A DNA stretch of 32,909 nt from Planctomycetota bacterium (GTDB lineage: Bacteria; Planctomycetota; PLA2; JAEUHO01). This document shows, one piece after another, positions 10,893 to 32,909 of the stretch. Every line of letters starts with the position of its first letter. The stretch's first letter is position 1. A program made the translations under genes and the position numbers. The notes below the pieces were generated by a model that made no database searches, was not told the DNA's origin, and saw nothing but the letters and a program-made list of their open reading frames with translations. The stretch covers positions 1 to 32,909 of the forward strand of contig JASJDY010000063.1 of the NCBI GenBank assembly GCA_030065025.1, given 5' to 3'.

Positions 10893-12347
10893 ATGCAGCT
10901 CGGCGCCTTCCTCGGACGCCTCGCGGGGGCACTGGGCCTCACGCTGGATCGCCGCGGACTGGTGCGAACCGGAGCGCTGCTCGCCGTGCTCCTGGGGGTC
11001 TATGCGGCGGCCTTCCCCGAGCGTCCCGAGCGGCTCCTGCGACACCTCTTCGGCTGGTTCGGCACCGGGGCCTTCCTCTTCCTGTGGTGGCGCGGCGCGC
11101 AGCAGATCCATGCGCTGGAGATGCGCCAGGAGGTCCCGTGGCGGCTCCTGGTCGGCTTCTTCGTCGTGTTCGCGGCCCTGGCGACGGCCATCCGGCCGTT
11201 CCACTCCTCCGACGTCTACGCCTACGTGACCGTGGGCCAGCTTCAACACGCCTACGACCTCGATCCGTACGTCCACACCGCGGCCGACGTCGAGGACTGG
11301 GAGGCGGATCCGCTGCTCTCGGGCACGTGGAAGGACGTGCCCTGCACGTACGGCGTGCTCTTCGCCTTCGTCACGAAGAAGGTCGTGCAGCTGGGCGGCG
11401 ACCTGGCGTCTTCGATCCTGCTGTTCAAGCTCCTGGGGATCGTCGTGCTGGCCGCCTGCGCGTGGCTGACGCTGGACACGATGCGCAGGCTCGGCGTCGG
11501 GGGGCGCGCCTTGGCGCTCTTCACGCTCCTGTGGAGCCCCTACGTCCTGCTCCACTTCGTATCGAACGCACACAACGACCTGTGGATGGCGCTCTTCCTG
11601 CTCGTCGCCTTCCGCCAGCTGCTGCTGGGCGATTGGCCCAGGGTCGTGGCCGTGATCCTGCTCGCCGCCCTCATCAAGCACCTGGCCCTCGTGGCGCTGC
11701 CGTTCGCCTGGATCCTCCTGGTGCGTCGCCATGGCTGGTGGCGCACGGCCGTGTCGTCCGCCGCTGCGTTCGCGGTCGTTGCCGCGCTGCTCGTGGCCTG
11801 GTCGCCCCCGTGGAGCGACGTGCGCTGGGCGCAGATCGGCTCCATCCTGACCACGCCCTGGAACTCGTTCCAGGCGGCGATCACGTACAGCTATGCGCAG
11901 GTCGCGCAGGCGGTCGCCGGGCTGGCGGGCAGCGAGCAGGCGGTGACGACGATCGTGCGCATCGCGTTCGGCCTGGGCTTCCTCGGCTTCTACGCCTGGC
12001 GCTGGCTGCGCGCCGTGCGTCGATCGGACTACGCGGCCTCCGACGTGATCGAGGACGCCGTGATCGTGTTCTTCGTGCTGCTCTGCATCGCGAGCGCGGC
12101 GTGGCATCCCTGGTACCTGGGCATGTACCTGCCGGCGATCTTCCTGCTGCCGTGCCGCCATCCGATCCGCGAGCTGACCCTCTGGATCGCCGCCTTCCAG
12201 ATGCTGGCATTCACGCCCCTGGCGAAGGCCCGCGTGCTCGAGGCCCTGGTGATGCTGGCGCTCCCGATGCTGCTGTATTGGCGTATGGCGCGAGCATCCC
12301 GGCGGGCCCGATCATCCAGCGATGCTCGAACGGACGGGGCGCTGTAG
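10893..12347 (+). CDS. Polytopic GT-C family (mannosyltransferase/DUF2029-like) membrane protein
   Basis: Many TM helices; FHSSDVYAYVTVGQ and SPYVLLHFVSNAHNDLWMALF motifs as in polyprenol-phosphate-sugar-dependent glycosyltransferases; AAGGAGG upstream. The last 12 codons and the stop lie in a repeat element. Confidence 0.75.
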   Translation: MQLGAFLGRLAGALGLTLDRRGLVRTGALLAVLLGVYAAAFPERPERLLRHLFGWFGTGAFLFLWWRGAQQIHALEMRQEVPWRLLVGFFVVFAALATAIRPFHSSDVYAYVTVGQLQHAYDLDPYVHTAADVEDWEADPLLSGTWKDVPCTYGVLFAFVTKKVVQLGGDLASSILLFKLLGIVVLAACAWLTLDTMRRLGVGGRALALFTLLWSPYVLLHFVSNAHNDLWMALFLLVAFRQLLLGDWPRVVAVILLAALIKHLALVALPFAWILLVRRHGWWRTAVSSAAAFAVVAALLVAWSPPWSDVRWAQIGSILTTPWNSFQAAITYSYAQVAQAVAGLAGSEQAVTTIVRIAFGLGFLGFYAWRWLRAVRRSDYAASDVIEDAVIVFFVLLCIASAAWHPWYLGMYLPAIFLLPCRHPIRELTLWIAAFQMLAFTPLAKARVLEALVMLALPMLLYWRMARASRRARSSSDARTDGAL

Positions 12348-12415
12348 GGGCGGGCTGAGCGAGGCCTGCAAGGCCGAGCGGTTGCCCGCCCGGCACGGAT
12401 GCTCCAGCGACGTGC
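12308..12415. repeat. GTAGGGGC-family element copy A1
   Basis: Near-identical to 21470-21577: CCGATCATCCAGCGATGCTCGAACGGACG.GGCGCTGTAGGGGCGGG.TGAGCGAG.CCTGCAAGG.CGAGCGG...CCCGCCCGG...GATGCTCCAGCGACGTGC. Confidence 0.85.
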
Positions 12416-12437
12416 GTGGTCGGGCACCCCCACCCCG

Positions 12438-12598
12438 CTCGATGTCGTCGTGGTCTTGGAGCCTCGATCATCCAGCAATGCGCCCACCTCAGGCATTCGT
12501 AGGGGCGGCTGGGAGTCCTTCGCGCAGCGAAGGACGAATCTCCGCCCGGCCCGCTGGAACTCCCTGGGACCGTGCAGGTGCAGGTGCAGGTGCAGGTG
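12438..12598. repeat. GTAGGGGC-family element copy A2 plus (CAGGTG)4 array
   Basis: About 90% identical by eye to 13076-13236; internal GTCCTTCGC/GCGAAGGAC hairpin; (CAGGTG)4 at 12575-12598. Confidence 0.85.
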
Positions 12599-12665
12599 TG
12601 GAATTGAAACGGTCCCCTGACCCGACGCGCGAGGCGTAGGTCAGGGGACCGGATACTTGGCTTAT

Positions 12666-12684
12666 GCGAGCCCGACGGGCTCGC
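12666..12684 (-). other. Hairpin downstream of the small lipoprotein gene (terminator or candidate bSECIS)
   Basis: gcgagcccg-a-cgggctcgc perfect inverted repeat, apex starting ~23 nt after the TGA on the minus strand; no obvious U-tract. Confidence 0.5.
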
Positions 12685-12698
12685 GGTGAGTACTAGCC

Positions 12699-12869
12699 TC
12701 ACCCCTTGCCGCCGCCACCGCAGCTAGCGGGGGCAGCGCTGGGCGCGGCCTGCGGCGCCGGGGCCGGCGCGACGGCGTTGGGATCGCCACTGGAGCTGGC
12801 CTGCTGGGCGCAGGCGCTGACACAACCGAGCGCGGCCACGAGGGCCAGGACGGAGAAGACCTTCTTCAT
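12699..12869 (-). CDS. Small Ala/Pro-rich lipoprotein ending SCGGGGKG (TGA); possible extension by -?-Gly to TAG at 12693
   Basis: MKKVFSVLALVAALGCVSACAQQASSSGD lipoprotein signal; purine-rich upstream (ccagaggaagcaATG); in-frame TGA-GGC-TAG at the 3' end. Confidence 0.8.
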   Translation of the reverse strand: MKKVFSVLALVAALGCVSACAQQASSSGDPNAVAPAPAPQAAPSAAPASCGGGGKG

Positions 12870-13075
12870 TGCTTCCTCTGGGGCTGGGTGATCGTGCTGA
12901 GCATCGGCAGTTCTGATGCCAGCGCTTGTCGAAGTTTGGAAAAGTCTATCGATCGGGAAGGACGAAGCAACCGCCCACCTGCATTGCACCAACAGAGGGA
13001 CAACCTGAGAGGCCTTTGGTCCCATCCACCGGAGCCCCTGCTCAAGCGAGTTGGGTGACCGTGTCGTTCCCGCTG

Positions 13076-13254
13076 GTCGATGTCGCCGTGGTACTGGAAC
13101 CCCGAGCATCCAGCAATGCGCCCACCTCAGGCATCCGTAGGGGCGGCTGGGAGTCCTTCGCGGAGCGAAGGACGAATCTCCGCCCGGCCCGCTGGAGCTC
13201 CCTGGGACCGTGCAGGTGCAGGTGCAAGTGCAGGTGGAAGTGGAAGTGGAAGTG
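13076..13254. repeat. GTAGGGGC-family element copy B plus CAGGTG/GAAGTG hexamer array
   Basis: Paralogous to 12438-12598; hexamers CAGGTG CAGGTG CAAGTG CAGGTG GAAGTG GAAGTG GAAGTG at 13213-13254. Confidence 0.85.
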
Positions 13255-13270
13255 GAGGCCAGGTGATGGA

Positions 13271-13289
13271 AGGCGCCCGACGGGCGCCT
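13271..13289 (-). other. Hairpin downstream of the Pro-rich lipoprotein gene (terminator or candidate bSECIS)
   Basis: aggcgcccg-a-cgggcgcct perfect inverted repeat; same CCCGTCGGG apex as 12666-12684; apex starts ~19 nt after the TGA. Confidence 0.5.
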
Positions 13290-13299
13290 GGCCCTAGCC

Positions 13300-13728
13300 T
13301 CAGCCCTTGCCCCCACCACCGCAGCTGCTGCCGCCGTCGCCGGCCGGAGGCGCAGGTGCCTCCTCGACGGGCGGAGGGGCCGGCGGCGTCCAGTTCGGGA
13401 GCTCCGGGGGCGTCGGCGCCGCGGGCGCGGCAGGGGCCGGCGGCGGCTCGGTGGGCAGCGGCGGCGGCGCCGGCGGCATCGCCTGGGCCGGAGGCATCGC
13501 CTGGGCCGGCTGCCAGGTCGTCGAGGGCGCGGGCTGCACCACCGCGGGGCGCGGCACCGCATACCCGGGAGGCGGCGGCGTGGTCCAGGCGCCGGCCGCG
13601 GTCGCCGAGGTCCCGGTGATGCTCGTGGGCGCTCCACCGGCGACGCCGGGCGCGACGGCGTCGTCGCCGATGCAGCCCGTCACGGCGAGGGCGGCGCAAA
13701 GCAGTCCGAGGGTCACGAGACGGCGCAT
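13300..13728 (-). CDS. Pro/Ala-rich lipoprotein ending SSCGGGGKG (TGA); possible extension by -?-Gly to TAG at 13294
   Basis: MRRLVTLGLLCAALAVTGCIGDD lipobox; GAAGGAGGAGTGCCATG RBS; shares the SCGGGGKG-TGA-GGC-TAG 3' end with 12699-12869. Confidence 0.82.
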   Translation of the reverse strand: MRRLVTLGLLCAALAVTGCIGDDAVAPGVAGGAPTSITGTSATAAGAWTTPPPPGYAVPRPAVVQPAPSTTWQPAQAMPPAQAMPPAPPPLPTEPPPAPAAPAAPTPPELPNWTPPAPPPVEEAPAPPAGDGGSSCGGGGKG

Positions 13729-15555: not shown

Positions 15556-17994
15556 ATGCATCGCACGCTCATCACGGTCACGGCCATCCTGCTTGTGACC
15601 TTGCCCGCCGCCGCGGCTCCGACGGACGGTCCCCTCGACGCCACCACGCGCGACTTCGACCAGCTGCACATGCGCATCATCGTGCGCCCCGACATCGCGA
15701 AGGGCACGGTCGAAGGCAAGGTCACGCTGCGGTTCGCGTCGCTCGCAGACGGGCTCTCCGTGCTGCGGCTCCACTGCCAGGACACGAAGGTCAAGGGTGT
15801 GAAGGACGCCAGCGGACGCACGCTGAAGCACCGGCACGCGCGCAACATCCTGGCGATCGACCTACCGGGGCCCCTGGCAATGGGTGCCCAGTCCGAGGTC
15901 ACGATCGACTACAAGAGCACGCCACGGCATGGGTTGCTCTTCCACCGGCCGACCGAGCGGGATCCCGACACCCCGCTGTTCATGTACAGCCAGGGCCAGG
16001 GCACCAACAATCGGCGCTGGATCCCCTGCTACGACGAGCCCGACGATCGCCTGAGCTGGGACCTCACGGTCCACGTGCCGCCCGGCATGGACTCCGTCTC
16101 GAACGGCGAGCGCGTGCAGAGCGTGACGATCCCCAACGTCGAGGGCTCCATGCACCACTGGCGCTTCGCCGACCGCGCGCCGACGTACCTGATCTCACTG
16201 ATCGTCGGGGAACTCCAGACGATCACGAAGGAACACAAGGGCGTCCAGCTCGACTACAGCGCCGTGCCGGGCAACAAGGAGAAGCTCGAGGCGTCGCTAC
16301 GCGAGACGGGCAACATGCTCGACTTCTTCGGGGAGTACCTGCAGGCCCCGTATCCGTGGAAGCGCTACGCGCAGACCTACGTCTGGGACTTCCTCTACGG
16401 CGGCATGGAGAACGTCACCGCGACGACGCTCAACATGCGCGCGCTGCACACCAACGCGATTCGCCCCAACTACAGCGCCGACGGCCTCGTCGCACACGAG
16501 CTGGCGCACATGTGGTTCGGCGACCTGATCACGTGCCGCACGTGGCAGCACATCTGGCTCAACGAGGGCTTCGCGACGTACTTCACCGACCTCTTCTTCG
16601 AGTGGCGCTACGGCCCCGAGGAGTTCCTGCTCAGGCGACGCCGGCAGAACCACGGCTACATGAAGGGCACGCCCAAGGCGAGCGAGCTCAAGCTCGAGCG
16701 CGACCCGCGCGGCGACATTCCGCTGGAGCTCTTCGGGGGCAAGCAGTACAGCCGCGGCGCGGCGATCCTGCACAACCTGCGCCGCCACCTTGGCGATGAG
16801 GTCTTCCGCGAGGCGATCCGCGCCTACGTGAAGCGACATCGCGACAGCGCCGTCACGTCCGAGGATCTGCTGACCGTCTGCGAGGAGGTCGCTGGCGAGG
16901 ACCTGCAGTGGTTCTGGGATCAGTGGGTCTACGGGCTCGGCTATCCGAAGCTCGACGTGAGCGTCGTGGACTACGAGCGGCAGATCGTCGTCCGCCAGAC
17001 GCAGAAGCAGGCAGGCGGCCAGGGTCTGTTCCGCCTGCGCGTGCCCATCCGCTTCGGCAAGGACGGCGTCGTCCGCACGGTCACCATCTACCGGGAGCGC
17101 CACACCTTCCCGCTGCTCGAGACGGAGGATCCTCTCCAGCACCTCCGCTTCGGCGTCGGCGGCGACCTGCTCATGCAGGTGAATCAGGTGCAGTCCTTCG
17201 CGCGGTGGGGTGAGCAGGTGCTGACGGATCCCGACGTGACCGGACGTGTCGATGCCGCCGAGGCGCTCGAGGAGTTCGGCAGCGTCTCGGTCCCGGCGTT
17301 GCGCAAGGCCTTGGAGGAGGACGGCTCGTACGCCGTCCGCAAGGTCGCGGCGGAGGTGCTGGGACGCATCGACGATGCTGCGGCGACCGAGGCCCTGCTG
17401 GCGGGCGTGAAGGACCCGGATCCGCGCGCGCGCGAGGCGGTCTTCGATGCGCTCGGCTCGAAGAACCGTCGTGCGGCCGGCGCGGTCGTGCTCGCTGCGG
17501 TGTCGAGCGAGCGCCATCCGCGCGTTCGCGCCGCGGCTGCGAGGTCCGTCGGCAAGCTCAAGGTCACGGGCGCCTATGACGCACTCGTCGCACTGCTTGC
17601 CGTCGACTCGGATCAGGACGCCGTGCGCACGGGAGCCGTCGACGGCCTCAAGAGCCTGGGCGACGTGCGCGCGGTCGAGCACGTGCTGCCGTTCCTCGAC
17701 TACGTGTGGGGCAAGGGCGGCAACCACAGACTGCGGCAGGCGGCACTGGGTTGCGTGACGCACCTGAAGCCCGACGACCGCACGCTTCACGCGGTCGTGG
17801 TCGAGCTGCTGGAGGATCCCTTCCACCGGATGCGTAGCTGGGCGGCGGACGCGTGTGGCACCTACAAGATCACGTCGGCCATCCCGCGGCTACGCCACCT
17901 GCGCGACAACGACTGGCGTGGCGGCGTGAAGGGCGCGGCGCGTCAGGCGCTCAAGCGGCTCGGGTGGCAGGAGCCGAAGAAGAAGGCGGGGTAG
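15556..17994 (+). CDS. M1 family metallopeptidase with C-terminal HEAT repeats
   Basis: GGMEN, HELAHMWFGD-x(n)-NEGFATY zinc motif; signal peptide MHRTLITVTAILLVTLPAAAA; C-terminal HEAT-like repeats. Confidence 0.92.
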   Translation: MHRTLITVTAILLVTLPAAAAPTDGPLDATTRDFDQLHMRIIVRPDIAKGTVEGKVTLRFASLADGLSVLRLHCQDTKVKGVKDASGRTLKHRHARNILAIDLPGPLAMGAQSEVTIDYKSTPRHGLLFHRPTERDPDTPLFMYSQGQGTNNRRWIPCYDEPDDRLSWDLTVHVPPGMDSVSNGERVQSVTIPNVEGSMHHWRFADRAPTYLISLIVGELQTITKEHKGVQLDYSAVPGNKEKLEASLRETGNMLDFFGEYLQAPYPWKRYAQTYVWDFLYGGMENVTATTLNMRALHTNAIRPNYSADGLVAHELAHMWFGDLITCRTWQHIWLNEGFATYFTDLFFEWRYGPEEFLLRRRRQNHGYMKGTPKASELKLERDPRGDIPLELFGGKQYSRGAAILHNLRRHLGDEVFREAIRAYVKRHRDSAVTSEDLLTVCEEVAGEDLQWFWDQWVYGLGYPKLDVSVVDYERQIVVRQTQKQAGGQGLFRLRVPIRFGKDGVVRTVTIYRERHTFPLLETEDPLQHLRFGVGGDLLMQVNQVQSFARWGEQVLTDPDVTGRVDAAEALEEFGSVSVPALRKALEEDGSYAVRKVAAEVLGRIDDAAATEALLAGVKDPDPRAREAVFDALGSKNRRAAGAVVLAAVSSERHPRVRAAAARSVGKLKVTGAYDALVALLAVDSDQDAVRTGAVDGLKSLGDVRAVEHVLPFLDYVWGKGGNHRLRQAALGCVTHLKPDDRTLHAVVVELLEDPFHRMRSWAADACGTYKITSAIPRLRHLRDNDWRGGVKGAARQALKRLGWQEPKKKAG

Positions 17995-18109
17995 GGGCGG
18001 TCGGAGCCCTGAGACGGAGTCGAAGGGCGAACGCCCGCCCGTCGAGCACCGGTTGCGATCCGCGGGCGGGCCTGCGGCGGCGCTTCGCGCCGCCTTGGGC
18101 CGCCCCTAC
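17991..18109. repeat. GTAGGGGCGG...CCGCCCCTAC inverted-repeat element
   Basis: Terminal 10-bp perfect inverted repeat (17991-18000 / 18100-18109) with internal GC-rich palindromes; overlaps the M1 peptidase stop codon. Confidence 0.85.
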
Positions 18110-20775: not shown

Positions 20776-21467
20776 TGAGCATCGAGCTGGACACGCTGGA
20801 GCAGCGCATCATCGGTGTGCTGATCGAGAAGGAGCTGACCGTTCCGGACACCTACCCGCTGTCCGTCAACGCGCTCGTCGCCGGCTGCAACCAGAAGAGC
20901 AACCGCGATCCCATGATGGAGGTCGAGGACTTCGACGTCGAGGGGGCCCTGCGCTCGCTCATGGACAAGGGCTGGGTCACGCGCCGCGAGGAGCTCAGCG
21001 CGCGGGTGATGAAGTACGCCCACGAGGCACGCAGCCAGCTCGGCGTCGACGTCCCGGACCTCGCGATCCTCTGCGAGCTGCTCTGCCGCGGCCCGCAGGC
21101 CCCGGGCGCGCTCAAGACGCGCTGCGCGCGCATGCATGCCTTCGCGAGCCCCGCGGAGGTCGAGGCACGCCTGGCGCAGCTGGCGGCCCGACCGGTGCCC
21201 TACGTCGGGGAGCTCGCGCGGCAACCGCGCGAGCGTCAGGCCCGCTGGGCGCACCGGCTGGGGAAGGAGGCGCCGGCGGCGGCTCCGTCCCCCACCTCCG
21301 CTTCCAGTTCCACTTCCACTTCCACTCCCGCTGCCGCGCCCGCACCCGCGCCCACGTCCACTCCGACGCCCACGAGCGAGGACCTCAACCTCGAGGCGCG
21401 TGTGGAGGCGTTGGAGCAGGAGGTGCTCGAGCTGCGGGACCTGATCGAGCGACTCAAGGGCATGTAG
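20775..21467 (+). CDS. yceH: YceH/DUF480 family protein with Ser/Thr/Pro/Ala repeat linker and C-terminal coiled coil
   Basis: MSIELDTLEQRIIGVLIEKELTVPDTYPLSVNALVAGCNQKSNRDPMMEVEDFDVEGALRSL; VEALEQEVLELRDLIERLKGM tail. Confidence 0.92.
   Translation: MSIELDTLEQRIIGVLIEKELTVPDTYPLSVNALVAGCNQKSNRDPMMEVEDFDVEGALRSLMDKGWVTRREELSARVMKYAHEARSQLGVDVPDLAILCELLCRGPQAPGALKTRCARMHAFASPAEVEARLAQLAARPVPYVGELARQPRERQARWAHRLGKEAPAAAPSPTSASSSTSTSTPAAAPAPAPTSTPTPTSEDLNLEARVEALEQEVLELRDLIERLKGM
21292..21375 (+). repeat. In-frame degenerate hexamer array inside yceH
   Basis: CACCTC CGCTTC CAGTTC CACTTC CACTTC CACTCC ... encoding SASSSTSTSTPAAAPAPAPTSTPTPT; reverse complement of the GAAGTG unit at 13237-13254. 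Confidence 0.75.
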
Positions 21468-21469
21468 GA

Positions 21470-21577
21470 CCGATCATCCAGCGATGCTCGAACGGACGAG
21501 GCGCTGTAGGGGCGGGTTGAGCGAGTCCTGCAAGGACGAGCGGAATACCCGCCCGGAGCGGATGCTCCAGCGACGTG
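21470..21577. repeat. Repeat copy homologous to 12308-12415 (left part of composite element C)
   Basis: Direct near-identity to element A1. Confidence 0.85.
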
Positions 21578-21704
21578 CTCGGTCCGGTGGGCGTCCTTGC
21601 CCGGTTGCGTCGAGGGTAGGCCTCACCCGAAGCGAGTGACGCGGCGTATGCGCGGGCGACCATTCCGGCCCGCCACAGGCGGACCTCAGGTCGCCCCTAC
21701 AGCG
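21502..21704. mobile_element. MITE-like element with 13-bp perfect terminal inverted repeats
   Basis: CGCTGTAGGGGCG (21502-21514) and CGCCCCTACAGCG (21692-21704); no coding capacity. Confidence 0.6.
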
Positions 21705-31847: not shown

Positions 31848-32711
31848 GTGAGCGAAGCGCCGGCCCTGTACGACCCGTCGGCGCTCGTGCGCTTCGGGAC
31901 CTCGTCTTTCTCGTCGAAGGACTGGGTCGGCCCCTTCTATCCTCGCGGCATGGCGCCGGGCGCGTTCCTCACGGAGTACGCCCGGCACTTCGATACCGTC
32001 GAGGTGGACGCGACGTACTACGCGCTGCCGAGCGCGCGGCTCGTCGACGGCTGGCGCGAGAAGGTGCCCGACGGATTCCTGCTCTCCGCGAAGTTCCCGA
32101 AGTCGATCGTGCACGCCGGCAAGACGTACAAGCCGGATCCCACGCGCATCCTCGACCCCGACGCCACGTACGAGGACCGCGACGTCTTCCTCGAGCAGAT
32201 GCGTCGCATGGGCGACAAGCTCGCGTACCTGCTGATCCAGTTCCCGTACTTCAACCGCGCCACGTTCCCCTCGGCAGGGCCGTTCCTCGAACGCCTGGAC
32301 ACCTTCCTGCGCGACCTGCCCAAGGACGACCTGCGCTTTGCCGTCGAGATCCGGAACAAGGCCTGGCTCAAGGAGGACTTCGTCGAGCTGCTGCGGCGGC
32401 ACGGCGTCAGTCTCGTGCTCGTCGACCAGGCCTGGATGCCGCACGGCGACGAGGTCACGCCGCGCTTCGACGTGCTGACGGGCACGGACTGCTACATCCG
32501 CCTCCTCGGCGACCGCAAGGAGATCGAGAAGATCACCAAGTCGTGGGGTGAGGAGGTCATCGACCACACCGACCGCATGCTGCGCTGGGCGACGCTCATC
32601 CGCGGCATGATGAAGCAGGGTGTGCGCAGCTTCGTGTACGTGAACAACCACTACGCCGGACACGCGCCCACGACGGTGAGGCGCCTGCGCGAGATGGTGG
32701 AGATGGAGTAG
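31848..32711 (+). CDS. DUF72 (YecE family) protein
   Basis: VRFGTSSFSSKDWVGPFYP..., FDTVEVDATYYALPS, FLLSAKFPKSIVH, VYVNNHYAGHAPTTVRRL. Confidence 0.92.
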   Translation: MSEAPALYDPSALVRFGTSSFSSKDWVGPFYPRGMAPGAFLTEYARHFDTVEVDATYYALPSARLVDGWREKVPDGFLLSAKFPKSIVHAGKTYKPDPTRILDPDATYEDRDVFLEQMRRMGDKLAYLLIQFPYFNRATFPSAGPFLERLDTFLRDLPKDDLRFAVEIRNKAWLKEDFVELLRRHGVSLVLVDQAWMPHGDEVTPRFDVLTGTDCYIRLLGDRKEIEKITKSWGEEVIDHTDRMLRWATLIRGMMKQGVRSFVYVNNHYAGHAPTTVRRLREMVEME

Positions 32712-32909
32712 GGGCCGCTGGGAGGCGGACGCGAAGCGTTCGCCGAATCTCGGCCCGGCCCGTTCATCCTCCCTGGGACCTCACGAAACAACGACGCGGC
32801 TGGGGCGACGCGGCCGAACGACGAGCCACCCCAACGCCCGTGTCTCAGGCGACCCTCGTAGCAGCACGGGTCGGGCCGAGATTCGGCGCGCGCGAAGCGC
32901 GCGCCTCCC
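32708..32909. mobile_element. GTAGGGGC-family inverted-repeat element, right end cut by window edge
   Basis: Left CGCCGAATCTCGGCCCG (32741-32757) is the exact reverse complement of CGGGCCGAGATTCGGCG (32872-32888); GGGAGGCG near the left end versus CGCCTCCC at the window end. Confidence 0.65.

Follow-up and report, generated by a model that had tools for sequence, protein, structure and literature searches.

A GTAG-class REP copy very probably supplies the protein tail and TAG stop of a planctomycetal glycosyltransferase gene

Does the end of a gene belong to the gene, or to a mobile repeat that has settled on it? The question is raised by a membrane glycosyltransferase gene in the window (the whole 32,909-nt stretch of Planctomycetota DNA analysed here), whose coding sequence enters a repeat in frame, so that the 12 C-terminal residues and the stop are encoded by the repeat. 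The codons at 12309-12347 read CGA TCA TCC AGC GAT GCT CGA ACG GAC GGG GCG CTG TAG, giving RSSSDARTDGAL*. In profile searches the product matches PF09594 just below the cut-off (E 3e-5) and, weakly, TIGR03459, far below the cut-off (E 7e-14). ATG 10893 is the likely start, with GTG 10836 as an alternative. Alignments to orthologues, which reach residue 474-481 of the 487-residue query, show that the reading frame is real.

A preliminary description had proposed that this tail is repeat-derived and that the same DNA recurs, intergenically, after the yceH stop. Consistent with this, 12305-12381 matches 21467-21543 over 77 nt at 94% identity, and the second copy is intergenic because it begins just past the TAG stop of the DUF480/YceH gene (Table 1). 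The window contains 12 instances of the box GTAGGGGC, where 0.53 would be expected, and 43 BLAST matches to the query 12305-12415 were found in the genome; the two copies therefore belong to a dispersed family and are no chance pair. In an alignment of 30 copies, the layout of the repeat is a left arm CCGATCATCCAGCG, about 20 variable nucleotides, GTAGGGGCGG, a hairpin whose loop and inner stem vary, CCCGCCCG and a right arm ATGCTCCAGCGACGT. The left arm is common to most of these 30 copies elsewhere in the genome, and it lies about 37 nt upstream of the GTAG, with a spacing fixed at 32-35 nt in every one of the 32 copies possessing both parts. The left and right arms of long-form copies (GATCATCCAGCG and GATGCTCCAGCGACG) resemble imperfect direct repeats around the hairpin.

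Folds of 12344-12392 and 21506-21555 leave the GTAG unpaired and close an 8-bp outer stem directly after it; the hairpin of the second copy reaches -28.4 kcal/mol (z -4.70). By the published definition, an unpaired GTAG head with a hairpin, the element is a GTAG-class REP. Repeat alignment and fold agree with the earlier proposal that the TAG at 12345 is part of the element's GTAGGGGC box, and they refine it: the box consists of the GTAG head, which stays unpaired, and the opening stem bases of a RAYT-linked REP hairpin. Members of this class are usually described as 20-40 bp long with the palindrome alone repeated, which is not an exclusive criterion. Here head and hairpin measure about 48 nt, the long form has conserved arms on either side in addition, and copies that have no left arm also exist. 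Copy number is high, with 433 occurrences of GTAGGGGC against 355 of the reversed control word. An Rfam search of 12000-13300 yielded no hit with E of 1 or less, and similar DNA was not found in phage records.

Table 1. Positions of the repeat, its parts and the genes it meets, in window coordinates unless another locus is named
Feature	Position	Strand	Remarks
Membrane glycosyltransferase gene, GT87-like / alpha-(1->6)-mannopyranosyltransferase-like	10893..12347	+	stop TAG 12345-12347
Left arm, long-form repeat	12308..12343	+	with base 12344 codes RSSSDARTDGAL; 30-copy alignment
GTAG head of REP	12344..12347	+	TAG 12345-12347 is the stop codon; head unpaired in fold
REP hairpin	12348..12391	+	RNA fold -33.2 kcal/mol, z -3.35, 0/200 shuffles as stable
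Right arm ATGCTCCAGCGACGTGCG, similar to left arm	12399..12416	+	alignment of copies
Intergenic long-form REP	12467..12560	+	duplicated with its surroundings at 13077-13236
GTAGGGGC box, M1 peptidase/HEAT-repeat gene (15556-17994)	17991..17998	+	TAG 17992-17994 is the stop; hairpin z -3.2
Native TAG stop of DUF480/YceH gene (PF04337)	21465..21467	+	3 nt before second repeat copy
Second long-form copy, intergenic	21470..21579	+	left arm 21470-21505, GTAG 21506-21509, hairpin 21510-21554, right arm 21562-21579
GTAGGGGC box, DUF72 gene (31848-32711)	32708..32715	+	TAG 32709-32711 is the stop; hairpin z -3.7
RAYT-like gene	L068 1333-1791 (region 1200-1860, G000:C102)		inverted GTAGGGGC hairpins on both sides

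Two further repeat arrangements were seen in the window. A 160-nt block carrying a long-form REP is present at 12439-12598 and at 13077-13236 (94% alike) and brackets a small lipoprotein-like gene on the minus strand (about 12705-12870). This gene ends SCGGGGKG and the next minus-strand gene ends SSCGGGGKG, and the arrangement suggests that gene and REP near 12439-13236 were duplicated in tandem. At the window's left end, a unit of roughly 200 nt occurs three times in tandem at 51-643 (70-72% identity), in or overlapping a coding frame.

If the tail came with the repeat, then relatives of the glycosyltransferase may end differently. We compared the C-termini of four orthologues, from genomes G002 (69% identity), G004 (55%), G006 (52%) and G007 (38%). 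All share the protein to about ...LPMLLYWRMARA, and the common helix ends ...ALPM or similar. Past the helix they end in RRFRSAPRDGPRLKHGSP (G002), REQRAKGGPTQESEA (G004), YYAREREDAPD (G006) and RRRQNKPVPLIDG (G007). A tail like RSSSDARTDGAL is absent from all four, and their ends also differ among themselves. Conservation of the tail residues, which would speak for a native end, was not found, since homology ends just before the repeat and 0/4 orthologues have the tail. The closest orthologue, that of G002, likewise has its stop, again a TAG, at a palindromic repeat's foot (CCGTAGGGAAGGGCGGCAATGTATGCCGCCCCTAC; CCG TAG GGAAGGGCGGCAATGTATGCCGCCCCTAC), and the unit GGGCGGCAATGTATGCCGCC recurs in G002 downstream of its RAYT gene. 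Given this TAG at a palindrome foot, REPs may already have been present at this gene end in the common ancestor of the two lineages.

The whole source genome contains one match to a Y1 transposase, a 152-aa RAYT-like protein with a PNHVHAII motif. It scores above the cut-off for Y1_Tnp (PF01797) and reaches 62 bits against NF047646, under the curated NCBIfam cut-off of 80. A PDB search by sequence with this protein returned no match. The gene for this protein likewise ends on a GTAGGGGC TAG (...GCGCCG TAG GGGC), and RAYT genes stopping on the same TAG were found elsewhere, two in G002 and one in the more distant G027. Across 31 genomes, GTAGGGGC relative to the reversed control is higher where a clear RAYT relative is present (Mann-Whitney p = 2e-4), a correlation that ignores shared descent.

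To place the boxes relative to genes, we used genes called by a simple codon-usage caller in 61 stretches of the source genome (862 kb, 670 genes). Because these stretches were partly picked for holding repeats, the counts describe the boxes and not their density in the genome. Of 183 boxes, 137 are intergenic, 21 lie inside genes, and in 25 a called gene stops on the TAG; in the congener G004, the same holds for 14 of 91 boxes (1.14 Mb). All but one of the 21 boxes inside genes are antisense and probably chance words, and the remaining one is in another sense frame. Downstream of a same-strand stop, four of the 183 boxes lie at 1-10 nt and ten at 11-20 nt. GGGC follows 25/184 GTAG stops compared with 3/342 TGA stops (p = 1e-9). 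By eye, a well-closed REP hairpin is present in about 16 of the 25 stop boxes, and part of the stop boxes are probably chance words, not REPs. A loose hairpin filter passed nearly all boxes and was thus uninformative, and a count of TGTAGGGGC was set aside as a pattern-offset artefact. Three of the 25 stop boxes fall within the window (TAGs at 12345, 17992 and 32709), and the case at 12345 is the only one among the 25 with the left arm within the coding sequence. TAG stops are unusually frequent for GC-rich genomes in both species, at 299/670 called genes in the source genome (G000: window plus L069-L128) and 485/874 in the congener (G004: L190-L249); the boxes account for a small part of this frequency.

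Other genes also end on the repeat's TAG. The M1 peptidase gene ends AAGAAG TAG GCC GGG TAG GGGC (AAGAAGTAGGCCGGGTAGGGGC) in G004 and AAGAAG AAG GCG GGG TAG GGGC (AAGAAGAAGGCGGGGTAGGGGC) in this genome. The first TAG has been lost here, or gained in G004, and the stop therefore moves to the in-frame TAG of the REP. The genes for the DUF72 protein, RdgB, quinolinate phosphoribosyltransferase and a dioxygenase stop within a few codons of their relatives' stops, some of which are another codon. By comparison with these relatives, the four stops are consistent with a REP landing on a gene end.

Collectively, these observations make it very probable that 12308-12416 is a GTAG-class REP copy with arms, spread by RAYT, which sits on the 3' end of the glycosyltransferase gene and supplies its tail and TAG, the native stop being gone and the change tolerated. 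The genome's RAYT transposase would spread REP copies, one of which, in the long form, would have come onto the 3' end of this gene. The native stop would have been deleted by the insertion or lost later; with it gone, translation would pass through the left arm, in one frame ending at the TAG of the GTAG head. The twelve arm-coded residues would then replace a poorly conserved tail, and the change would be tolerated. That RAYT moved this particular copy, the order of events and the neutrality of the outcome are what we infer from the arrangement.

Could the hairpin instead be kept as a functional gene end, stabilising or terminating the mRNA, with the adjoining TAG under selection? Strong hairpins do stand directly 3' of stops, intergenic boxes are in sense after the upstream gene in 97 cases and opposite in 30, and REPs are believed to have a role at the ends of mRNAs (PMC3733652). 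However, most genes have no hairpin, and a conserved element at the glycosyltransferase end was not seen in the orthologue set, and we regard this account as rather unlikely.

Alternatively, the insertion machinery might target existing (G)TAG stops, in which case the stop would be native and the repeat would merely follow it. The boxes peak exactly at the stop, with 25 there and 14 in the next 20 nt. Among sense boxes, 25 are in the stop frame and one is in another frame (p = 2e-11 under random phase), the corresponding numbers in G004 being 14 and two. In some element-free orthologues (DUF72, L106, L070), a TAG stands at the same place or at most one codon away. However, the codons ahead of the stop at 12345 are repeat sequence, and TGA is found in element-free relatives of RdgB (the nearest six), of the dioxygenase at L096 (two of the nearest) and of L110 (in G004). 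Genes with a box show, if anything, weaker conservation of stop position (2/9 versus 72/125, p = 0.08). The orthologues do not favour pure targeting of native TAG stops, and we consider it unlikely that targeting explains the glycosyltransferase end.

That insertions into coding ends pick up in-frame TAGs at random was rejected as the sole cause of the stop association, as the other two sense frames are nearly box-free: for each stop case, chance should produce about two in other frames, and almost none were seen. Chance capture alone does not account for the precision of the association, and TAG targets older than the insertion are not clearly apparent in the orthologues. A broader proposal is that REPs spread by RAYT in Planctomycetota are aimed at translation stops, with the GTAG guide picking or rebuilding a TAG, so that gene ends would be reset recurrently and would occasionally gain repeat-coded tails; we hold this to be a doubtful generalisation. 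Finally, a chance match or an assembly artefact is highly improbable: this is a metagenome assembly and repeats can cause misjoins, but a glycosyltransferase orthologue aligns in frame to about 10 residues from the repeat, the same arrangement is found at many loci in two genomes, and GGGC favours GTAG over TGA stops as counted above.

A stop supplied by a repeat is already a known kind of event, because GTAG REPs were reported often to supply TAG stops (Di Nocera, De Gregorio and Rocco, 2013; PMC3733652). In the available portion of that report, GTAG superfamily REPs share with the present element the unpaired GTAG head, the palindrome, dispersal mainly at gene 3' ends and occurrence in Planctomycetes; unlike the cases described there, here the arm upstream of the GTAG also codes a protein tail. 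The GTAG REPs of Stenotrophomonas and Pseudomonas, SMAG among them, likewise combine GTAG with a hairpin and high copy number, but have other stem sequences, and such arms are not noted in the accounts available. Within the accessible GTAG REP literature, we found no description of the sequence of this Planctomycetota family or of its conserved left and right arms. In the parts available of the work on RAYT/REP units, or 'REPtrons' (Nunvar et al., 2010, PMC2817692; TnpAREP, 2021, PMC8266576), a RAYT gene likewise stands between inverted REPs and has one at its stop codon. In contrast to those units, the RAYT model score here is under the curated cut-off.

The locus offers a concrete example, open to counting, of protein ends being rewritten by mobile repeats; the phylum is uncultured and the repeat is tied to a RAYT. 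The qualitative remark of 2013 can now be put in figures, the stop-associated share of boxes being about 14-15% in each of two species. With a narrow peak at the stop and near-empty other sense frames, whether insertion or selection places REPs at gene ends becomes testable.
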